Part shown: positions 39,160 through 60,632 of the stretch, in pieces
Numbering within the stretch: the first letter of the stretch is position 1
How the letters are laid out: every line of letters begins with the position of its first letter
Program-made: the position numbers and the translations under genes
Notes under the pieces: generated by a model
Databases searched by the model: none
What the model saw: only the letters and a program-made list of their open reading frames with translations
Told to the model about the DNA's origin: nothing
Assembly (NCBI RefSeq): GCF_011039205.1
Contig: NZ_JAAKEL010000020.1
Coordinates: 1 to 60,632, forward strand
Direction of reading: 5' to 3'
Source: Dysgonomonas sp. ZJ279
GTDB taxonomy: Bacteria; Bacteroidota; Bacteroidia; Bacteroidales; Dysgonomonadaceae
Length of the DNA: 60,632 nt

Positions 39160-39553
39160 GGGGCTGACCGGTTTTGACAGCGAGATGAAGTGATTTGTAA
39201 GCATGCAGTGCGTAGTCGGCTAGCACTATAATCTCAGACGTCAAAATTTTAACTGGCGAAAATAATTACGCTCTTGCTGCTTAATCGAATTACAGTAGAT
39301 AAAGCTTAATCTCTGCACAGGTGTAGAGACAAGACATCACCCGGAAGCTGTGGCTTCGAAGCATTCCGATATGGTGGTGTAGGTAAATCGGAGATAGGAT
39401 AGGGAAGGCTTCGGTCTCTATCTGAAATAAAGAAGCTAAGGTTTGGGTTGGTGGCTTCGGTCTTGCCCACTCCCTACAATTAAAGCGAAGATAAGCATGT
39501 AGAAAGCAAGTTAATTCCTTGTTTGGACGAGGGTTCGAATCCCTCCAGCTCCA
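39160..39553 (+). ncRNA. ssrA: tmRNA (ssrA)
   Basis: The 5' end GGGGCUGACCGGUUUUGACAG and the 3' end with T-arm GGGTTCGAATCCC and CAGCTCC form the tRNA-like acceptor domain (7 bp). The tag reading frame at 39255-39284 encodes GENNYALAA and a stop, the tag type known from Bacteroidales such as Porphyromonas. The pseudoknot region lies between. CCA is not encoded. tmRNA with SmpB frees stalled ribosomes and tags the protein for decay. The 3' end is the attachment site of the element to its right, whose insertion keeps the mature sequence complete. Confidence 0.96.
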
Positions 39554-39554
39554 C
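39542..39554. repeat. Left attachment core of element E1
   Basis: CCTCCAGCTCCAC, made of the tmRNA T-arm/acceptor 3' end, is repeated exactly at 52931-52943 on the same strand. It marks the left edge of E1. Confidence 0.85.
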
Positions 39555-39660: not shown

Positions 39661-42645
39661 TTATTCGTTATATTTTAAGTTTAACACTTTATCATCAAAG
39701 AAATCTGTAAATTGCTTATAGGCTTCAATTATTTCTTCTTTTGTTACATCCTTGTTGTATCTATTTTTGTAAGTCCAATCATATAACGATTCTGTTACCG
39801 ATTTTTCTACAATTAGTTTAACTATTTGATCTGATTCATCATTTATTTGATCACCAGAGGAGCTTGATTTTAATGAATATGGAGACATCATCATGGGGAA
39901 ATGGTCTGAAATAAATTCTCTAATATAATGCTTATCAAAATAAGAAATCTTTAAATCTTGTCTTAGTCTCAATTTAATATACTTTGTATCACAAGGCAAA
40001 ATATATCTTTCTAATGACGGAGAGAACCAATCACAGAATTTTCCAGTTATATATTTTATTACTGCATCTTGATTAAATAATTGTGATTCTGTTTTTGATC
40101 TGATAAATCTTCTTATATAGCTTCTATTATTTTCATCTAATTCTTCCTTAATATACGGATAATTCTTTTTTATAATGTGAAGAATAAAAGCCATTATATC
40201 ATCGGTACTCTCGAATGTCAATTCTAAGTTAGAACCTTCCATTTCAAAAGTTGGTAATTTGTAAAAAATATCATTTGCTTCATTTGCTTCATCTTCATCT
40301 ATTAGATTTATAATTATATTTTCAGTTTTATCGAATATTTCCTTAAGAGAGATTTTACCTTTTCCATTTATTAGAATTTGATAATTTTGCCACTCTTGGT
40401 ATTCTTCTTTTTTAAAATACTTAGCAAAATCTTCTTCCCAGTAAAAATGAATAAACATGCTAACTTTTTGTTTCTGCAAGTCATTCAACTTATTACTTTT
40501 TACATATTCTGGTATTATTTTGAATATGCATTCTAACCTTTCTTTATCGAAATCTTTGACATACGAAGGCAATATGTAATTTCTGTTAATGGAAATAATA
40601 TTCGACGTATCATTCTTCAATATATTTACTTGGCTACCTAAAAATCTAAGATCGTTAGAACTATTGTTAATTAGCTGATTCTTATAATAAACTTCATTGG
40701 GGTTGTTTGGTTTTCCACTATTTACAATATTGAAATGAAGATTATGTTCCTTATTGAAATATTCAAAGCCGAAAGAAATATCTTTCTTATTTTCTTCACT
40801 GACTGTTTTCCCATCAATAATCAATCTGATATGAAAATAATTTTGTTTTGCAAAATCTTGTATTTCTTTTATTATTACTTTCATCTCTATTGACCCTTTA
40901 CTTATATTAAATGGATCAACATCTTCAATCATGTATCTGCGTCCTAGCCTGTAGTAATATTTACCTGAAGATTCATTTGTATCCAATTTACTGTATTCTG
41001 TATTGAATGATAAAAAGGTTCCAGGCTTAGTTTTGTAAGATGGGGGAAGCTTTTTAATTAATATTTCGCCCTTTCTTTTCGATTCGGGATTTGTCAGTTC
41101 GATCATTAATTCCGTTTGTTCTATAAGGCTTTTTGTCTTTATAGAAACGACATCTGCTAGCATAAAAATACTTTGAAAGCCTATGCCAAATGCACCAGAA
41201 GGTCTTAACCATTCTGGCATTTCTTCAATTATCTGTTTCTTTTTTTTGTTTTTAGAACTACTCCCTGTTGTTGATATAAATTTTAAATCATCTAAAGAAA
41301 TACCAATACCCAGATCTTCAATAGTAATTTTCCATTTAGGATTGTCTTCCTCTGTTGTAATATCACTAATTGTATCTAACTTGATTGTAATAGGGTATTC
41401 CTTACACCACTCCTGAAATATCGGGTTGTTTGGAGTAAGATCTTTAGCCTGTTCATCTGTATGATGCTCTAACCAAAGTCTTATCAATGAAGCATCCACT
41501 GAATTTTGCAATAGTTCACGAATACTTTGTCCAGAATGGCTATATAGTCCTGTTCCTTTTAGTAACTCCAAGGCTTTTTCGGTATCAACATTAAATACAG
41601 GTTTTTCTTTATCATTAATATATTCCCATTCTTCAAGTTCTACTTTCAGATTTTTTATTGTAGGCAGATATCCATAATTAAGATTGGGTACAATATTATT
41701 CCAGTTGAGCATCTGATTAACAACCTCTTTTCGTATATAAGAAAACCAGTGTTGAGTTATTGTAGCAACATCATAACTTATACATTTAGCTGTTATATCA
41801 ATTTCTTTTTGATCTACACTAAAGTGAATAATTGAAAAATGTTTATCTCTATGTAATAAAGAATCATACGGTATGGTTTTTACAGTACGCAAAAAAACAT
41901 CAGAGAATCTATTATTGTCTAAATCAAGCAAATCTCCTAATCTTAAGAGACATGCAATATATCGTGGATGTGCATCATAGGTGTCAATTCCCACTTCCTT
42001 GATTGGTAGCTTCATTACCTTTTCAAAGTCTTCTGTATGAACAGAACATATTTCTCCCAATATTTTAATAATTCGTTGAGGAATAATACCTCTCGGAGAA
42101 TTCAATGAAATCTCTTTCATCGGATCAATAATTATTTCCTCCGAACGCTTTGCGTGATATTTTCTAAAGTAATCAGCTAAAAGGAATTTAACACTGTCAT
42201 ATACCTCTATTGAAAAATCTCTATTTTCTAAAACTAACTGTTTACCTTCTTTATGGAAATGGCTTGCATATATATTTAGGTAGTGAGTATTATCATTTTT
42301 TATATCAATAATATGGTTTATGAAAGCTTCACTTTTTAAGGCTTTTTCTAATTTTTCCGCATCAATAGCCATACCAATATCATGATAGTAGGCTGAGGTT
42401 AAAAGAAACCAAATGTCAATAGCCGTAAATTGTTCAATTGTATCAACTCCAACTAGCCTTACAATATTGTTAATAATCGTCTCCGAATGAGATTGATCAT
42501 GCATACTATAATGAGGGAATATGCTTGATATTAAACTTAAAGCTTTAGGTACTAATCTTTTATCATAAATCCATTGAGTATATAATATATCACTTTGAGA
42601 ACCTTCAGTCTTTTCAAATAATAATCTTTCTAATTTTTTAATCAT
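39661..42645 (-). CDS. HD-domain plus Hsp90-type ATPase (GHKL) protein
   Basis: A 994-residue protein. The N-terminal 280 residues hold an HD-type phosphohydrolase region (HDQSHSETI near residue 49, YYHDIGM near 93 and LLRLGDLLDLDNNRF near 240). A GHKL/Hsp90-type ATPase follows: N-box SIRELLQNSVDASLIRLW near 385, G1 box IEDLGIGISLDDL near 447 and G2 box PSGAFGIGFQSIF near 496. The C-terminal 350 residues show no known domain. HD and Hsp90-like ATPase pairs occur in conflict and defence genes, so a role in phage or plasmid defence is my inference. It is cargo of E1, 49 nt downstream of the nucleotidyltransferase-HEPN gene and likely co-transcribed with it. Confidence 0.75.
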   Translation of the reverse strand: MIKKLERLLFEKTEGSQSDILYTQWIYDKRLVPKALSLISSIFPHYSMHDQSHSETIINNIVRLVGVDTIEQFTAIDIWFLLTSAYYHDIGMAIDAEKLEKALKSEAFINHIIDIKNDNTHYLNIYASHFHKEGKQLVLENRDFSIEVYDSVKFLLADYFRKYHAKRSEEIIIDPMKEISLNSPRGIIPQRIIKILGEICSVHTEDFEKVMKLPIKEVGIDTYDAHPRYIACLLRLGDLLDLDNNRFSDVFLRTVKTIPYDSLLHRDKHFSIIHFSVDQKEIDITAKCISYDVATITQHWFSYIRKEVVNQMLNWNNIVPNLNYGYLPTIKNLKVELEEWEYINDKEKPVFNVDTEKALELLKGTGLYSHSGQSIRELLQNSVDASLIRLWLEHHTDEQAKDLTPNNPIFQEWCKEYPITIKLDTISDITTEEDNPKWKITIEDLGIGISLDDLKFISTTGSSSKNKKKKQIIEEMPEWLRPSGAFGIGFQSIFMLADVVSIKTKSLIEQTELMIELTNPESKRKGEILIKKLPPSYKTKPGTFLSFNTEYSKLDTNESSGKYYYRLGRRYMIEDVDPFNISKGSIEMKVIIKEIQDFAKQNYFHIRLIIDGKTVSEENKKDISFGFEYFNKEHNLHFNIVNSGKPNNPNEVYYKNQLINNSSNDLRFLGSQVNILKNDTSNIISINRNYILPSYVKDFDKERLECIFKIIPEYVKSNKLNDLQKQKVSMFIHFYWEEDFAKYFKKEEYQEWQNYQILINGKGKISLKEIFDKTENIIINLIDEDEANEANDIFYKLPTFEMEGSNLELTFESTDDIMAFILHIIKKNYPYIKEELDENNRSYIRRFIRSKTESQLFNQDAVIKYITGKFCDWFSPSLERYILPCDTKYIKLRLRQDLKISYFDKHYIREFISDHFPMMMSPYSLKSSSSGDQINDESDQIVKLIVEKSVTESLYDWTYKNRYNKDVTKEEIIEAYKQFTDFFDDKVLNLKYNE

Positions 42646-42694: not shown

Positions 42695-43591
42695 TTATTT
42701 CCTATACTCCATCTCCCCATACTCCCCAATCTTCTCCTCACAAATCCTCTTCGTAATATCCCTCAACAATTCCACTTTCGGCACAAGGGCATCAATATCT
42801 TCTTTTGTAACAACAAAATCAGGATCATAGCGTCCATTTACATAAGCAGCTTTAATAAGCTCGAATAATCGTTTTTCTTCTGCTGTATCCTGTGGAAAGA
42901 CTTTGATAAACTCGTTAGAATATTTCTTTACGGAGTTTAATAATTTTGTGAGATTATGTTGTTTTGGGTTTTCGAGTGTATTCACTAGGCGAATAGCATA
43001 AATAAGATTTTCACAAGTTTGATGTAAGTTGAATGATGCTAATTTATATTTCTCTTTTTCATAATAGAATTTAGCTCCTTCTAAGAAATCGTTTGCGTAA
43101 TTAAACTTATCAATAAAATATTCCTGAGCCTGTTGTTTTATTTCATCAAAGCTGAGTTTGCGTCTTCGTGCTAATTTGTGTTTTCCGCTATCATATAATA
43201 CAACACCCTCTTGCTTTATCTGTGTATAGAAATATCGCCCATCATTCAGGTACTTGTTCAGTTTCTTCATGTCTTCACTGATAAACTGAACAGGAGGCTG
43301 TCTGTCAGGGTCTTTTGCCCTGTCATAATACAAATCTTCTACATTACTGAGTGACCTGATTGCTCCTCCATCCGATACTCCGCTTGTGACAACTAATATA
43401 TCATAATCGCTTACATAAAACTGTAGTTTGCCAAACTCATATTTTTCATCATATACCACATAGTCATTTCTGGCATAGCTACCGAAGAGGATTATCATTT
43501 CGGTTTGTTTCAGCCGTTGTAAAACAGCCTCGACAATAAAATGTAAGTCTCTCTGGTTGGTTGAAGGTAAATATGATATGGATTTCTTCAT
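42695..43591 (-). CDS. Fused nucleotidyltransferase (MNT) and HEPN-like protein
   Basis: A 298-residue protein. Residues 1-125 form a pol-beta-type nucleotidyltransferase with GSYARNDY near 37 and the catalytic SDYDILVV near 62. The spacing between them is longer than in minimal MNT antitoxins. From about residue 150 the helices (FLEGAKFYYEKEKYKLASFNLHQTCENLIYAIRLV) match a HEPN domain, but I do not see the RNase motif R-x4-6-H. In MntA/HepT toxin-antitoxin pairs the two functions are on separate proteins; here they are fused. It is the first gene of the E1 cargo operon. Confidence 0.8.
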   Translation of the reverse strand: MKKSISYLPSTNQRDLHFIVEAVLQRLKQTEMIILFGSYARNDYVVYDEKYEFGKLQFYVSDYDILVVTSGVSDGGAIRSLSNVEDLYYDRAKDPDRQPPVQFISEDMKKLNKYLNDGRYFYTQIKQEGVVLYDSGKHKLARRRKLSFDEIKQQAQEYFIDKFNYANDFLEGAKFYYEKEKYKLASFNLHQTCENLIYAIRLVNTLENPKQHNLTKLLNSVKKYSNEFIKVFPQDTAEEKRLFELIKAAYVNGRYDPDFVVTKEDIDALVPKVELLRDITKRICEEKIGEYGEMEYRK

Positions 43592-43675: not shown

Positions 43676-43683
43676 TATATTTG
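43676..43683 (+). promoter_or_regulatory. Putative -7 box of the E1 130-aa gene
   Basis: TATATTTG fits TAnnTTTG. It ends exactly where the sequence shared with the E2 copy begins to be visible (43683), which would make almost the whole conserved block a transcribed 5' leader. Confidence 0.55.
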
Positions 43684-43815
43684 TATTTACATCCTGCTTC
43701 TTGTCAGTTTGACTAAAGATTATGGCTGACGACTCAATACCGCAGAGATATAAATTAATCACTTAATATTTATATCGGCTTGATTAACTAATCAGGCTTA
43801 AAAGCGGACATATAT
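43683..43815 (+). ncRNA. Conserved structured leader of the 130-aa gene (E1 copy)
   Basis: This 133-nt non-coding block is matched without gaps by the complement of 60500-60632, with only 3 differences. It can form three hairpins: H1 43703-43709 with 43724-43730, H2 43747-43755 with 43768-43776 (9 perfect pairs), and H3 43778-43785 with 43790-43797 (8 pairs, tetraloop AACT) 18 nt before the start codon. Two of the three differences lie in H1 and change U-A to U-G, keeping the pairing. It may be a cis-acting regulatory RNA; no ligand is known. Confidence 0.55.
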
Positions 43816-44208
43816 ATGGCAACACAACAAACAATCTCAAACGAATATTGTGCAATACTAATAAATTGTTCTTCTCTGGTATTAAGGCTATCCCATGACA
43901 AAATCAAAGAAAGCTACTCCGACAATCCCATGTATGTGAAGGAATACATTGCAAAAGGAGTAAAGGAAAATATAATCGATATTCTGTTCGATGACCAGAG
44001 GGCGACTTTATCCTGTACTTTTGATGAGAATAATATCTGCAACACTTCTTATATATTCCTTGACAATCTGGACGAGTTGGGTTACTATATTATTTATCTC
44101 AATGGTAAGTATGATTATGACTATATTCGGAACCGATGGACATTACCCAATTCATTCATATCCATAGAAAAGACGAAAGACGATATCTACTTTAAGTCTT
44201 TCTATTGA
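43816..44208 (+). CDS. Unrecognised 130-aa element protein (E1 copy)
   Basis: A 130-residue protein with no signal peptide or membrane helix and no domain I recognise. It is about 75% identical by eye to the product of 60107-60499. Segments shared exactly include YCAILINCSSLVLRLS, IKESYSDNPMY, NLDEL, NRW and LPNSFISI. It is the only rightward gene in E1 and converges on the MobV relaxase gene; the E2 copy likewise converges on a relaxase operon. A role tied to mobilization or element control is inferred from that position only. Confidence 0.7.
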   Translation: MATQQTISNEYCAILINCSSLVLRLSHDKIKESYSDNPMYVKEYIAKGVKENIIDILFDDQRATLSCTFDENNICNTSYIFLDNLDELGYYIIYLNGKYDYDYIRNRWTLPNSFISIEKTKDDIYFKSFY

Positions 44209-44228: not shown

Positions 44229-44259
44229 ATTCAGGCAAGATCTTAAATCTTGCCTGAAT
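44229..44259. terminator. Hairpin between convergent 130-aa gene and mobV
   Basis: Perfect 13-bp arms ATTCAGGCAAGAT and ATCTTGCCTGAAT with a 5-nt loop. It sits between convergent genes, but no strong T run follows on either strand, so termination efficiency is uncertain. Confidence 0.6.
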
Positions 44260-44294: not shown

Positions 44295-45728
44295 TTACCT
44301 TCTCTGTCCCTGCTGATTCTTCGGTTGATTCACCTTTATGCCCAAATACTCAAAGAATTTCTGTTTCTGCTCCCTGAACCAACCGCTATACTCTTTTCCC
44401 TCAATAGCCAGAAACGGTGTATTGTCTTTTGAGTTTTTGTCAATCGTTATTTTGGCATTATCAGCCTCAAAATGCTGACTGTGTTCGGGAGAGAACAATT
44501 TACCTGTATAAAAGGCATCTTTACCAGAGAACGCTTGCTTGGCTATATGATAAGGTAATTTGATGGTCTCGCACAGCCTCAATATAAAATCATATTCTTT
44601 TAATGCAGGTATGCAGTCAAACAGCTTATCCAATTTACCCTTTAGGATATTGATGGTACTATCCTTTTCAAGAATAGACCTGTCTTTTTCAGCAATGTCT
44701 TTTTTTGCCTGTTTATTGACAGCTTCCTTCTCTTCCTGTAAGGCTTCAATTTCTCGTCTTAGCTCATCGTTTTGAGCTTCGAGCCTTTTGGCTTTGGGGT
44801 TTCCCATCAATGATCCTATACCATCCGAAATATTTTTAGCTGTTTTCTTCAAAGATTTTTCCACACCCAACATTTTTACTTCGGTTTTAGCTTCTTGAAC
44901 TAGTTTTTGGTTTTCCTTCAGTTCACTCTGCTTTTTGTCAGCCTGTTCTTGCAGGGCAGACAAGCGGAGTTGTTCTTGTGCTTCTTTCTGCTGTAAGAGC
45001 TTGACGGCTTGTTGTTCCTGTTCTTTCTCCTGCTGCAACGAACCTATTTCCTCTTTGATGGTTTCGGTTTGTAGAAATATATTCCTGTAATACTCATACG
45101 TCTCCGTATGCTTCGCTTTCGACCCATCAACACCTCGTTCCAGTCCGTAGGGTTTCATCCATTCCGCATACGAGTTCTGATATTCTTTAAGTTTGTTCCT
45201 TGCCATTACATCATCTGCACACAATCGGGAGGTATCTTTGCTTTTCTTCTTATATGCTTTTTTATTAGCCTCTTGTTTCTTGCTGTCCTTTACCTTTCTT
45301 CTCTCACCGGTAACAATAGGTACAACAGTTGCATGAATATGAGGTGTCTTCTCATCCATATGTAAGACGGCAGATACAAGGTTCTTTTCTCCATAAGTCT
45401 GTTTTAACCAATCGATATTATCGGTACACCAGTTATCGAGGTTTCCTGATTCTTCGATGTCTTTCATATCCTCATGTGTACCTGAGAGCATAATGCGGAT
45501 AGCATGTACCTGATCTTTGGATATCTTCCTTTTGATATCCGCATTCTCTATTCTATGCTGTATGGCTTCTGTCCGGCTATTGACTCCTTCGGGAAAGTAT
45601 ATTAATTCCTTATTGAGGTGTGTACGGTTTTTATCGACATTATGGGGATCGATTGTCCGTTCGATATGTGCCGACATGGGGGCATCGTTCCCCTTGGCTT
45701 TCTGTAAATGAAGTACTACATATCCCAT
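44295..45728 (-). CDS. MobV-family relaxase (Pre/Mob)
   Basis: A 477-residue plasmid-recombination/mobilization protein. The N-terminal relaxase domain contains the metal-binding motif HMDEKTPHIHATVVPI near residue 125 and an early region starting MGYVVLHLQKAKGND. The middle (about 230-355) is a long Gln/Glu/Lys-rich coiled coil, and the C-terminus ends in a basic tail. It nicks oriT and leads the strand into the recipient through a helper conjugation system. The upstream 257 nt contain nested palindromes, the likely oriT. Confidence 0.92.
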   Translation of the reverse strand: MGYVVLHLQKAKGNDAPMSAHIERTIDPHNVDKNRTHLNKELIYFPEGVNSRTEAIQHRIENADIKRKISKDQVHAIRIMLSGTHEDMKDIEESGNLDNWCTDNIDWLKQTYGEKNLVSAVLHMDEKTPHIHATVVPIVTGERRKVKDSKKQEANKKAYKKKSKDTSRLCADDVMARNKLKEYQNSYAEWMKPYGLERGVDGSKAKHTETYEYYRNIFLQTETIKEEIGSLQQEKEQEQQAVKLLQQKEAQEQLRLSALQEQADKKQSELKENQKLVQEAKTEVKMLGVEKSLKKTAKNISDGIGSLMGNPKAKRLEAQNDELRREIEALQEEKEAVNKQAKKDIAEKDRSILEKDSTINILKGKLDKLFDCIPALKEYDFILRLCETIKLPYHIAKQAFSGKDAFYTGKLFSPEHSQHFEADNAKITIDKNSKDNTPFLAIEGKEYSGWFREQKQKFFEYLGIKVNQPKNQQGQRR

Positions 45729-51475: not shown

Positions 51476-52768
51476 TCACAATTGATCGAATTTACTCATT
51501 GCATTGGCTTTTATATCATCTGCGATATCTATATAAGGCTTCATCGCCTTATAATCACTATGCCCTGTCCATTTCATAACAACCTGTGCAGGAATACCCA
51601 ATGATAAAGCATTACATATAAATGTCCTACGACCAGCATGGGTACTTAATAAAGCATATTTAGGAGTAACTTCATCAATTCGTCTGTTTCCTTTATAATA
51701 AGTTTCACGAACGGGTTCGTCTATTCCGGCTAGTTCTCCCAATTCTTTCAAATAATCGTTTACTTTTTGAGTTGTGATTACCGGCAGAACTTTGTTGTGC
51801 TCGAAGTGAACATCCTTGTACTTTTCAAGTATACCTTTGCTATGGTTATTTAATTCAATAATCAGACTATCTGCTGTTTTCACTGTTGTAACCTCAATAT
51901 AATTTTCCTTTACATCCGTCCGTTTTAAGTTAAACACATCAGAATATCGAAGTCCGGTAAAACAGCAAAATAAAAATATATCGCGTACTCGTTCCAGATA
52001 CTTCTTAGTTTCAGGAATAGTATATTCCCTCAGTTTAGAAAGTTCGTTCCATGTTAGGAAAATAACTTTCTTCTGGGTGGTTTTTAGTTTAGGTTTGAAT
52101 GCATCAAAAGCATTGTTGTTATTGTATTCTTTCTTTATAGACCATCGAAGAAACCATTTAACAAATTTAAGTTGTTTCTCTATTGAACTGTTTCTAAAGT
52201 CTTTTTTATTTCTAAGATAATTGACATAATCTGTTAATCGGGATTCATCCAGAGATTCAAATGTGAGTTCTGCATCAAATTGGGTTAAATGATTTTTTAC
52301 AGTTTTAAATTTTTTATATGTTGACTCAGTCCAGTTGTTTTGTATCCCACATTCTTTAACAAATTCATCAAAAATTGAGAAGAAAGTAAAAGTTGGTATA
52401 TCCTCTTTTGATCCTTCTTCATTTTGATTCTTCTTATATTTTTTATTGAAAGCATCTTTGATTTGTGTAGTTTCAGGGGTAATTTCTAAAACTTCAAACT
52501 CCTTAAATATATTCTGAATACATGTACTATATTCATTAAGATCAGAGTTAATTTCAGATGCCGTTTGTCTAAGTTTGTTTGTGCAACCATTCTTTACTCG
52601 TTGTAATTTCTCATCCCATTTGGAGGCATCAATACGATATCCTGTTGTGAATTCTATTCGATTCCCAGCATATACTACTCTCATTCGTATAGGCACATTT
52701 TCTATAAGGGGAAGACCATTCTTTTTTCTACTTTCTAATGAGAAAATGACATTGCGTTTTATATTCAT
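51476..52768 (-). CDS. Tyrosine recombinase (integrase) of E1
   Basis: A 430-residue integrase. It has an N-terminal arm-binding domain (residues 1-70), a SAM-like core-binding domain (about 130-230), and a catalytic domain. The first catalytic Arg is in TGLRYSD near residue 270, the H-x-x-R motif is HAGRR near 378, GHSDYKAM is near 404, and the nucleophile Tyr is in YIDIAD near 411. All expected residues are present. It lies 160 nt from the right attachment core and reads away from it, the standard layout for its own recombination site. Confidence 0.93.
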   Translation of the reverse strand: MNIKRNVIFSLESRKKNGLPLIENVPIRMRVVYAGNRIEFTTGYRIDASKWDEKLQRVKNGCTNKLRQTASEINSDLNEYSTCIQNIFKEFEVLEITPETTQIKDAFNKKYKKNQNEEGSKEDIPTFTFFSIFDEFVKECGIQNNWTESTYKKFKTVKNHLTQFDAELTFESLDESRLTDYVNYLRNKKDFRNSSIEKQLKFVKWFLRWSIKKEYNNNNAFDAFKPKLKTTQKKVIFLTWNELSKLREYTIPETKKYLERVRDIFLFCCFTGLRYSDVFNLKRTDVKENYIEVTTVKTADSLIIELNNHSKGILEKYKDVHFEHNKVLPVITTQKVNDYLKELGELAGIDEPVRETYYKGNRRIDEVTPKYALLSTHAGRRTFICNALSLGIPAQVVMKWTGHSDYKAMKPYIDIADDIKANAMSKFDQL

Positions 52769-53386: not shown

Positions 53387-54592
53387 ATGAAAACAATGAG
53401 TGTAGCCTTTTTTACAAGAAAAGAACGTATTAACGAAGGCAATGAAGTTCCTATTTTTATGAGAATTACTATTGATGGAAAACGTGCTGAGTTTTCTATT
53501 AAAGAAAAGATAGAAGAAGAAAAATGGCTAAACGGAAGAGCTGTTGGAGCTTCTAACAAAAGTAAAAACCTGAATGATTTATTAGATTCTTATACAGCAA
53601 AGGCTAAGGAATATTACCGCTATTTGTATGATAGAAATGAATCTGTTACTGCTCTAAAAGTTTCAGATTTAATGAAAGGTAAAAACACAAGCGATAAGAC
53701 TCTGTTGTGGCTTTGTGATAAATACATATCGAAAATATCAAACTTAATAGATAACGGATACGCTGATGCAACCCTTACACGCTATCAAACAACAAAAAGG
53801 CATATAGAAGCTTTTTTAAAGAAGAAATATAAGAAAAGCGATATTCTTATTACTGACCTGAATTATGAGTTTATCTCCGAATTTGAGACCTATTTTAAGC
53901 GGACTCGTGATTGTAATCACAATACATCAATGAAGTATCTCAAAAATTTAAAGGCTATTGTTAATCTAGCTTTAAAGAATGATTGGCTGGATAAAGATCC
54001 TTTCAGAAACTTTGCCTGTAAAGTACAACCAGTAGAAAGAGACTTCTTGACAGAAGAGGAAATTCTCAAAGTAAAAAGTAAGAAGATATCAATTGAGCGG
54101 TTAGATATAGTCAGGGATGCTTTTGTCTTAGCTTGTTATACAGGATTATCTTATATTGATATCAAAGGATTGACCAAAGGGCATATTATTAAAGGCGTGG
54201 ATGGAGAGCAATGGATATATGCAAATCGAGAGAAGACAAACGTAATGTCAAAGATTCCTATTTTGCCTGAAGCTGAAAGGATTATTATAAAATATAGCTC
54301 AGGTCAGCATTATAAAGATACAGGGTGTGTTATCCCTGTTCCATCGAATCAGAAAGTAAATGCTTATTTGAAGGAAATTGCAGATATGGCAAAAATTAAC
54401 AAGAATTTAACTTTTCACGTTGCGAGACACTCGTTCGCAACCCTAATGCTCAGTTATGGTATGTCCATCGAATCAGTGAGTAAAATGCTAGGACATAATC
54501 AGATTAGAACAACACAGATATATGCTAAGGTCACAGAAGAGAAAATAGCAAAAGAAATGATTGCTTTCAAAAATAGAAATATAAAACGATAA
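53387..54592 (+). CDS. IntDOT-like tyrosine recombinase of E2
   Basis: A 401-residue integrase with an N-terminal arm-binding domain, a core-binding domain (about 100-210) and a catalytic domain. The usual first catalytic Arg (TGLR) is Ser (ACYTGLSYID near residue 250), as known for the CTnDOT integrase group. HVARHSF near 345 gives H-x-x-R, GHNQIRTTQIY near 370-381 ends in the nucleophile Tyr. It reads away from the middle attachment core and is followed by a 17-bp terminator stem. Confidence 0.92.
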   Translation: MKTMSVAFFTRKERINEGNEVPIFMRITIDGKRAEFSIKEKIEEEKWLNGRAVGASNKSKNLNDLLDSYTAKAKEYYRYLYDRNESVTALKVSDLMKGKNTSDKTLLWLCDKYISKISNLIDNGYADATLTRYQTTKRHIEAFLKKKYKKSDILITDLNYEFISEFETYFKRTRDCNHNTSMKYLKNLKAIVNLALKNDWLDKDPFRNFACKVQPVERDFLTEEEILKVKSKKISIERLDIVRDAFVLACYTGLSYIDIKGLTKGHIIKGVDGEQWIYANREKTNVMSKIPILPEAERIIIKYSSGQHYKDTGCVIPVPSNQKVNAYLKEIADMAKINKNLTFHVARHSFATLMLSYGMSIESVSKMLGHNQIRTTQIYAKVTEEKIAKEMIAFKNRNIKR

Positions 54593-57904: not shown

Positions 57905-58142
57905 TCATCGTTTTTGCTCGTCGGGAGGAGTGGTCTCCCCCCTTGCCGCTGGGCGTTCCCCGACCGATGAGTTATTGTGTTTGGTCATAACTGTAAGTCA
58001 AATTTGCTGAATAAACGAACTGCTCCTATGTGAGCCTGCCTTTTGTGTGCGTTAGCGTAGCGAGGTTATGTTTTCATTGCATGAAAACCCTCGCTTTGGC
58101 TGACCGCCAAAGGAAAAATTGCTCCCGTTGGTCGACAATTTT
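57905..58142 (+). other. Putative oriT region of E2
   Basis: A 238-nt gap before mobC, markedly GC-richer than its neighbours. It contains small palindromes such as GGAG-TGGT-CTCC (57925-57936), a partly matching CTCGTCGGG and CCCGACCGATGAG pair, and CTTTGGC-TGACC-GCCAAAG. Position and structure fit an origin of transfer. The nick site is not identified. Confidence 0.55.
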
Positions 58143-58532
58143 ATGGAGAAGAAGAGTACAGATAACAAGAAAGGAGGACGTCCCCCAAAGACTTCCGTAA
58201 GCCGAAAAAGCAAGACCGTAGGAGTCTGTTTTTCCGAGCCTGAACTCTATGCCATCAAGCATCGGGCAAAACAGGCAGGACTTCCTTTAAGTATCTATTG
58301 CCATGACGCCATTCTCAAAGCAGAAATAAAAGAAGCCATGAAAAAAGAAGATATACAAACACTCAAAGGACTAGCCAATATGGGCAATAACCTGAACCAA
58401 TTCGTAAAAATGGCACGCTTTACAAACCTCAAAACACTAGAAGAAGAATCACTAAAACTATTTGAAGAAATTCAACAAATTATAAAACAACTGTCCCATG
58501 ATTGGAAAAATAGTAAAAGGAAAGAGCTTTAA
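58143..58532 (+). CDS. MobC-like relaxosome protein
   Basis: The frame is open from a TTG at 58119, but the ATG at 58143 gives the usual MobC start (MEKKSTDNKKGGRPPK). The 129-residue product has a ribbon-helix-helix-like region (KTVGVCFSEPELYAIKHRAKQAGLPLSIYCHDAIL) and a C-terminal helix ending in LANMGNNLNQFVKMA, the MobC family signature. It binds oriT with the relaxase. It overlaps the relaxase gene by 35 nt. Confidence 0.88.
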   Translation: MEKKSTDNKKGGRPPKTSVSRKSKTVGVCFSEPELYAIKHRAKQAGLPLSIYCHDAILKAEIKEAMKKEDIQTLKGLANMGNNLNQFVKMARFTNLKTLEEESLKLFEEIQQIIKQLSHDWKNSKRKEL

Positions 58533-59424
58533 AGGCTGCATTTCCTATGTCCTCGATAAAGAAAATGTTAGACTGATAGACAGTGAAGGCGTATTAATAA
58601 CAGATACAAAAGCCATCATTAACAGTTTCTATCTACAAAGCCTGATGAGCCCTAAACTCACGAAAAGTGTCGGTCATATCCCCATCAGCTATTCCAAAGA
58701 AGACGAATCCCGACTGACAGACCAATTTATGATTCAACTCGCAAAAGAATACATGGAAGCCATGAAAATTAAAAATACCCAGTATATTATCGTCAGACAT
58801 AACAATACCGACAATCCCCATTGCCATATCGTTTTTAACCGAGTAGACAATGACGGTAAAACCATATCCGATAAAAACGATCACTACCGCAATGAAAAAG
58901 TATGCAAACAACTAAAAGATAAATATAACCTTACCTATGGAGAAGGCAAAGAACAAACCAATATCCAGAAACTCAAAGGAGCAGAGAAAACCAAATACGA
59001 AATATACCATGCCATTAAAGCGACTCTGAAAATATCAAAAGATTGGCAACAATTCGAGCAAAACCTAAAACAGCAAGGCATATCCATTGCTTACAAATAC
59101 AAAGGTCAAACCGACGAAGTGCAAGGAATCTCATTCAGGAAAGGAAAACATACCTTCAAAGGCTCAGACATAGACAGACAGTTCAGCTATTCAAAATTGA
59201 ACAACCTCTTTCAACAAAATCACAACCAAAAGCAGCATATCTCTGAAAAGCAAGCACAAACAGAAGATACCCCAGTCCAGCCGATTACAGAATCGATGTC
59301 GGACAATCTCGGAGGAATCTTTAACATACACCTGAACGGAGAAGACCATGAAGAAGACGCATTTAGGAAAAGAATTGAACACGAAGAGAAGAAACGTCGT
59401 AAGAAAAACGGAATTAAAAGATAA
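58498..59424 (+). CDS. MobA/MobB-type relaxase (pfam03432-like)
   Basis: A 308-residue relaxase. The nucleophile Tyr is in CISYVLDKENVR near residue 18, and the metal-binding motif HNNTDNPHCHIVFNRVD lies near 101-117. It is a different family from the MobV relaxase of E1. The C-terminal third has a Gln/Lys-rich region and ends in a basic tail. It nicks oriT and stays attached to the transferred strand. Confidence 0.92.
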   Translation: MIGKIVKGKSFKGCISYVLDKENVRLIDSEGVLITDTKAIINSFYLQSLMSPKLTKSVGHIPISYSKEDESRLTDQFMIQLAKEYMEAMKIKNTQYIIVRHNNTDNPHCHIVFNRVDNDGKTISDKNDHYRNEKVCKQLKDKYNLTYGEGKEQTNIQKLKGAEKTKYEIYHAIKATLKISKDWQQFEQNLKQQGISIAYKYKGQTDEVQGISFRKGKHTFKGSDIDRQFSYSKLNNLFQQNHNQKQHISEKQAQTEDTPVQPITESMSDNLGGIFNIHLNGEDHEEDAFRKRIEHEEKKRRKKNGIKR

Positions 59425-60106: not shown

Positions 60107-60499
60107 TTAATAGAAAGACATAAAGAAAATATCGTCTTTGGTCTTTTTTATGGATATGAAAGAATTGGGTAATACCCAACGGTTCTGAATATAATCATAA
60201 GCGTAAGTCTTATTCAGATAACTGATATAGTTATTCAACTCGTCTAAGTTGTCAAAGAATATATAAGAAGCATTGCAGTTATTATTTCCGTCAAAGGCAC
60301 AGGACAGGGTTGCTTTCTGATCATCGAACGCAAGTTCTATTAAATTCTCTTTCATTCCATTTTCAATATACTCGGCTATATACATAGGATTATCTGAGTA
60401 GCTTTCTTTGATTTCATCATCGGATAGCCTGAGTACTAAGGAGGAACAATTTATCAGTATTGCACAATATTCAATTGAGATTTTTTCTTGTGTTGTCAT
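60107..60499 (-). CDS. Unrecognised 130-aa element protein (E2 copy)
   Basis: A 130-residue homologue of the E1 protein at 43816-44208, of the same length and without gaps, about 98 of 130 residues identical by eye. The conserved cysteine-containing stretch EYCAILINCSSLVLRLS and the end LPNSFISIKKTKDDI are shared. As in E1 it runs toward the relaxase genes and ends shortly past them. No domain is recognised. The 3' flanks of the two copies are unrelated. Confidence 0.7.
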   Translation of the reverse strand: MTTQEKISIEYCAILINCSSLVLRLSDDEIKESYSDNPMYIAEYIENGMKENLIELAFDDQKATLSCAFDGNNNCNASYIFFDNLDELNNYISYLNKTYAYDYIQNRWVLPNSFISIKKTKDDIFFMSFY

Positions 60500-60632
60500 A
60501 TATATGTCCGCTTTTAAGCCTGATTAGTTAATCAAGCCGATATAAATATTAAGTGATTAATTTATATCTCTGCGGTATTGAGTCGTCAGTTATAATTTTT
60601 AGTCAAACTGACAAGAAGCAGGATGTAAATAC
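60500..60632 (-). ncRNA. Conserved structured leader of the 130-aa gene (E2 copy)
   Basis: The 133 nt upstream of the E2 start codon match the E1 leader without gaps at 130 positions. In this copy the H1 hairpin has seven Watson-Crick pairs (60585-60591 with 60606-60612), where E1 has two G-U pairs. The window ends exactly here, so how far the match extends is unknown. Confidence 0.5.

Follow-up and report, generated by a model that had tools for sequence, protein, structure and literature searches.

The locus examined here raises the question of why two copies of a small gene, whose 130-amino acid products are unlike at 32 of 130 residues, are preceded by a block of 133 nucleotides that is almost the same in both, and of what kind of element this block may be. 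The window, that is, the whole stretch of 60,632 nucleotides of Dysgonomonas sp. ZJ279 which was analysed, is the entire contig C11, and position 60632 is its final base. It contains both copies, designated E1 and E2, together with the following features around them.

43676..43683, plus strand: putative -7 box TATATTTG (position checked)
43684..43815, plus strand: E1 structured RNA leader (match of the RNA model R1 at 43684-43822, E 1.1e-23, E1 being one of the 14 rows from which R1 was built)
43701..43732, plus strand: hairpin H1 (arms 43701-43709 and 43724-43732)
43740..43743, plus strand: CCGC, predicted partner of GCGG at 43804-43807 (the best duplex of E1)
43747..43776, plus strand: hairpin H2 (arms 43747-43754 and 43769-43776)
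43777..43798, plus strand: hairpin H3, then UUAAAA (arms 43777-43785 and 43790-43798)
43804..43809, plus strand: GCGGAC, start-region segment predicted to pair back into the leader (swap tests, 24 leaders)
43816..44208, plus strand: E1 130-aa gene (protein unmatched in Pfam and NCBIfam)
44230..44258, plus strand: inverted repeat TTCAGGCAAGAT...ATCTTGCCTGAA, 3' of the E1 130-aa gene
60107..60499, minus strand: E2 130-aa gene
60500..60632, minus strand: E2 leader, cut by the contig end

Direct comparison of E1 43683-43815 with the complement of 60500-60632 confirmed what the preliminary description had reported of the two 133-nt leaders and their proteins: mismatches occur only at 43718, in the loop, and at 43724 and 43725, in the right arm of H1, where U-A pairs in E2 correspond to U-G pairs in E1. 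The equal length and the point at which identity begins had also been thought meaningful, but both are simply set by the end of C11. Contig C10 stops at the same base of another, third leader copy, so that the repeat probably extends beyond this point. A DNA search of this genome with the leader region gave 11 matches, of which two belong to a single C22 copy as separate pieces; a protein search with the 130-aa sequence gave 12, including the two pieces of one broken C57 copy. In the latter (G000:C57:5200-5587), the 130-aa gene lies in two pieces with internal stops, and the leader is still there (R1 E 0.24).

The octamer TATATTTG is taken by us to be a -7 box on the basis of the Bacteroidota consensus TAnnTTTG. 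Of the 26 leaders for which upstream sequence is available, 25 have this consensus immediately 5', and the 26th, L061, has TATCTTTA. The putative leader thus lies on the sense strand, 5' of the ORF and behind a conserved -7 box, and reaches the ATG. Beyond the E1 gene, the inverted repeat at 44230..44258, read from the sequence, is a possible terminator without a T-run; a terminator scan did not report it.

The three hairpins previously placed between the leader start and the ATG are all present, and E1 43683-43830 folds at -30.6 kcal/mol with a z of -3.24, one of 200 shuffles being equally good; the z of the E1 leader fold ranges from -3.2 to -3.3. All of 24 diverse leaders, representing groups A, B and C, fold below the mean of 150 dinucleotide shuffles, with a mean z of -3.36 and a weakest z of -1.83. 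In the 14 leaders of group A, 88.2% of the cells of a five-helix model are paired versus 34-40% in slid controls. An alignment of homologous leaders with a covariation test had been proposed earlier; in these 14 leaders the covariation score of 0.172 (shuffled, 0.119 +/- 0.009) is reached by none of 500 shuffles and the double-sided changes at 11 of 36 pairs are matched by 6 of 500, but further pair types, one of the five measures used, are equalled by 60 of 500. Among the individual helices of group A, H1 has 80.7% of its cells paired and double-sided changes in 5 of 10 pairs, H2 has 95.5% paired and a double-sided change in 1 of 8 pairs, and H3 has 100% paired, with a U-G pair kept in 12 of the 14 leaders; forms of H3 occur also in groups B and C. 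The long-range helix P1, with just 68.7% of its cells paired, counts against the leader reading.

The model R1, built from the 14 group A leaders only, finds members of groups B and C outside its training set (C26 at E 3e-7 and C55 at 7e-4) and likewise G034 46867 (E 2.9e-6). In a search of Rfam 15, no family matched the leader at the gathering threshold; the matches were only tmRNA and tRNA, apart from two at E 7 and 8, far under threshold. By these sequence comparisons, the leader looks like a real structured RNA which is unmatched in Rfam and has good comparative support. The preliminary description had proposed an undescribed structured RNA leader on the thin basis of three differences in one comparison cut by a contig end; the proposal now stands on covariation, fold z, cognate pairing and the Rfam result instead. 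The neighbouring MNT-HEPN gene, the long-range pairing of the start region and the second family of genes behind the leader, all treated below, go beyond that description.

The cognate pairing concerns the bases before the ATG, which in partner-swap tests are on average more complementary to their own leader than to other leaders. In these permutation tests, which do not fully correct for shared ancestry, p for 24 leaders is 1.5e-4 at the 5' end, 8e-4 in the interior and 5e-5 for the best of both, versus 0.88 for a control pair of segments; for the 13 leaders less than 65% identical, p is 5.5e-4, versus 0.54 for a reversed-segment control. Against this, a control of the leader with the H3 region gives p of 0.05, 0.03 and 0.21 at three clustering levels, the tests give weak results when confined to group A (p 0.05, 0.09 and 0.03), and E1 itself is not distinctive, ranking 22nd of 24 in 5'-end pairing and 12th of 24 in interior pairing. 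The predicted partner site varies among the 5' end, the H1 loop and an ACCGC segment before H2. Matched changes are seen at the 5' end in C7 (AUGUCC/GGACAU), C23 (AACAUCC/GGAUGUU) and L061 (GCGUUCC/GGAACGU), and at the H1 loop in C22 (GUCCGU/ACGGAC), L086 (GUCCAUU/AAUGGAC), L128 (GUUCGU/ACGAAC) and L069 (GUCUGU/ACAGAC); in E1 and L070 the predicted partner is the CCGC segment. Such a moving partner site is unusual for a conserved switch and counts against a role in translational control.

The genes downstream of the leader are of two kinds. The leader precedes either the 130-aa family or, at L038, L086, L088, L105 and L128, a family of 73-77 aa, and profile comparison detected no similarity between the 130-aa and 77-aa families. 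The E1 130-aa protein has a confident mixed alpha-beta AlphaFold2 model (pLDDT 90.8), for which structural comparison gave no telling match; the 77-aa protein is predicted to be helical (pLDDT 79.3). The downstream gene is lost or broken at L085, L107, C35 and C58, and at C35 and C58 the promoter, H1 and H2 alone are present, with no small gene downstream.

Homologues of the 130-aa protein have the leader at 27 of 38 loci; the remaining 11 have neither an R1 match at E <=1 nor a full MNT-HEPN gene in the stretch examined, and one of them, L082, has a short C-terminal MNT-HEPN remnant. At 8 of these 11 leaderless loci an XRE-like HTH gene faces the 130-aa gene (Pfam HTH_3 in all four checked), a pattern that would follow if the same gene were controlled either by MNT-HEPN together with the leader or by XRE. 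Upstream of many leaders there is a near-perfect palindrome, RGGTCTGNGACCY, which occurs in 29 of 168 loci (many of them overlapping), including two leaderless 130-aa loci, L021 and L082, and does not occur in the window (L006 1369-1381; L007 1364-1376; L021 1271-1283; L075 1297-1309; L082 1596-1608).

On the other side of the leader lies a constant neighbour.

42695..43591, minus strand: fused MNT-HEPN gene, 298 aa, divergent (PF05168 E 2.3e-16; PF18765 under cut-off)

At E1 this gene is 93 nt from the leader, and a divergent fused MNT-HEPN gene is found 82-585 nt away at all 32 leaders with at least 800 nt upstream. The leaders examined numbered 35; the other three are E2 and C10, whose leaders start where their contigs end, and C58, whose 196 nt of upstream sequence contain no MNT-HEPN match. 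All 35 were collected via leader DNA, the 130-aa protein or the RNA model, and never via MNT-HEPN. This genome has 13 MNT-HEPN matches, fragments included. MNT-HEPN genes without an R1 match were found at 8 of 30 loci (including one fragment and one degenerate copy), and also at L145-L149 and at L169 and L170 (a Parabacteroides and a Rhizobium plasmid). The MNT motif GS...DxD is kept in 30 of 32 copies. The HEPN RNase motif Rx4-6H is not conserved: the pattern appears in 14 of 32 copies at shifting positions, mostly as RSNKQH or RNNKQH, and E1 is without it. According to the consulted portion of PMC3710099, HEPN domains fused to MNT typically are without RNase residues. Among solved structures, chain 4nqf is a match for the HEPN part (E 9.6e-13).

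Some MNT-HEPN fragments consist of the 3' end only (G034:C1:1136877-1137164, G034:C1:4279106-4279339, G002:C2:224655-224804 and G000:C35:16945-17124) and are perhaps attachment-site copies or decay remnants. In addition, a 994-aa HD-CE/ATPase protein (window 39661-42645) adjoins MNT-HEPN and matches part of the defence-associated RT_UG24 profile (E 1.3e-11).

The leader and the gene behind it do not share one history. The leader had been described as far more conserved than the gene. This holds among E1, E2, C10 and L057, which have near-identical leaders and diverged genes, but not generally: when 10 loci with related 130-aa genes are compared pairwise, leader identity exceeds that of the gene DNA in 9 of 45 pairs (8 counting gaps), and in the reverse case of E2 versus L058 the genes are 90.8% identical and the leaders about 52%. 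At 22 loci with all three parts, the leader's 5' part follows MNT-HEPN (r 0.72, partial r 0.72) and shows hardly any correlation with the 130-aa protein (r 0.18; partial r 0.11, p 0.14). For the last 50 nt the order is reversed, the correlation being higher with the 130-aa protein (r 0.59) than with MNT-HEPN (r 0.32). Leader and gene together thus form a mosaic, and the higher conservation of the leader between E1 and E2 reflects separate histories of leader and gene. The mosaic suggests exchange of the small gene, with the junction near H3 and the start codon.

The surroundings of both copies are those of mobile DNA.

44295..45728, minus strand: Mob_Pre mobilization gene beside E1 (PF01076 E 3.7e-26)
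51476-52768: integrase gene, farther from E1
53387-54592: integrase gene, E2 side
58119-58532: NikA-like gene, near E2
58498..59424, plus strand: relaxase gene near E2 (PF03432 E 1.8e-34)

Several leader copies are near tmRNA or tRNA genes. A tmRNA gene lies near the E1 module (window 39160-39554) and near the Bergeyella copy (L164 1218-1622), and its vicinity may be a hotspot for integration. At the E1 module, no direct repeat was reported. Among 393 genomes of the order, R1 matched 3 under stricter filters (E <=0.01); under laxer filters it matched 10 of 14 genomes, these having been picked from earlier matches. Among 15 named MNT-HEPN loci, 8 have an R1 match, and these belong to Dysgonomonas species (D. 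alginatilytica and D. capnocytophagoides among them), to one MAG of Candidatus Azobacteroides, with two loci, and to one of Bergeyella.

Taken as sequence evidence, these results favour, at a probability of roughly 0.6, a new leader which controls the translation of an exchangeable small gene carried on integrative elements, with MNT-HEPN as a possible regulator. The support computed for it consists of the conserved RNA structure, the cognate start-region pairing, the constant MNT-HEPN neighbour and the mosaic histories. The block would be the 5' leader of the 130-aa mRNA, whose start we infer to lie about 6 nt past TATATTTG, near 43690. The leader would form H1, H2 and H3, and the bases before the ATG would pair back and close the structure up to the start codon. 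Given this pairing between the start region and the other parts of the leader, a control of translation is probable: the closed start region would repress it and a signal would open the leader. In the portions of PMC9976891 and PMC6847099 consulted, the Bacteroidia ribosome is described as ignoring Shine-Dalgarno sequences and mRNA structure as tuning initiation, so that closure of the start region is a plausible means of control. On integrative mobilizable elements, leader and gene would travel together as one module whose 5' leader part stays with MNT-HEPN. The likeliest trans factor, acting by binding to the leader or by modifying it, would be the fused MNT-HEPN protein encoded divergently. 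In a specific form of this idea, MNT-HEPN recognizes and perhaps nucleotidylates the leader and so switches translation of whichever small gene has recombined behind it, as an RNA counterpart of the XRE-like repressor; this we regard as tentative and rather unlikely, and leader and MNT-HEPN could be inherited together for no other reason than their physical linkage.

The same neighbour may be read in another way. The RNA could mainly be a partner of MNT-HEPN, as substrate, inhibitor or guide, similar to the RNAs of AbiF or type III systems, the small gene being merely read through. The presence of MNT-HEPN beside all 32 leaders with sufficient upstream sequence, the strong partial correlation of the RNA 5' part with it, the retained MNT active-site motif and the occurrence of promoter, H1 and H2 without a small gene at C35 and C58 speak for such a partnership. 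We nevertheless consider it unlikely, as C35 and C58 keep the 5' part only and C58 shows no MNT-HEPN match in its 196 nt upstream, complete copies show pairing between the leader and the small gene's start region, MNT-HEPN often occurs without the RNA, the HEPN part is without a conserved Rx4-6H motif, and the correlation could come from linkage. As far as the consulted part of PMC12373285 describes them, AbiF/RCd22 and type III toxin-antitoxin RNAs share with this leader a structured RNA, a HEPN-superfamily gene and mobile DNA; unlike them, the present RNA is divergent from the HEPN gene, so that, by position, it does not precede a toxin gene on the same strand, it ends at the ATG of another gene, and the accompanying HEPN part is without a conserved Rx4-6H. 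The HEPN/MNT (HepT/MntA) toxin-antitoxin systems, in the available portions of PMC7641770 and PMC3710099, likewise combine MNT and PF05168 HEPN domains, and those portions mention no RNA leader. Unlike these type VII systems with separate genes, one 298-aa ORF here holds both domains; across the copies GS...DxD is mostly kept, and Rx4-6H is absent in E1 and not conserved.

It may further be asked whether the block acts as DNA, that is, as a site of recombination or exchange, a protein-binding site or a single-strand promoter during transfer. Mobilization and integrase genes nearby, tmRNA or tRNA genes near several copies and the independent variation of gene and leader identity fit such an element, but the U-G pair of H3 and the U-A/U-G exchanges in H1 fit RNA pairing better than DNA pairing, the block is placed in the sense direction after a conserved -7 box and ends at a start codon, and homologous recombination could make use of a conserved H3 that is no dedicated site; a DNA element is accordingly judged improbable. 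That the block has no function at all, the E1/E2 identity reflecting recent recombination between paralogues and the hairpins being by-products, would suit the differing histories and the shared end base of C10 and C11, but is hardly credible in view of structure and cognate pairing which persist below 65% identity and across genera.

The translational-control leader has its closest relatives in a known class. Structured 5' leaders which sequester the start region include translational riboswitches and ribosomal-protein leaders. Like these, the present RNA lies on the sense strand directly 5' of a gene, has covarying helices and is predicted to pair its start region back, so that position and promoter, covarying structure and start-region pairing all point to a leader which controls translation. 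Unlike these, it has no Rfam match, three alternative partner sites and two dissimilar small-gene families downstream, on mobile elements.

If this reading is true, the cis-regulatory RNAs of a phylum in which ribosomes forgo Shine-Dalgarno pairing would include one more family, and the fused MNT-HEPN proteins would gain a testable role. Furthermore, the contrast between loci with MNT-HEPN plus the RNA and loci with an XRE-like gene before the same gene family would make the question directly testable.
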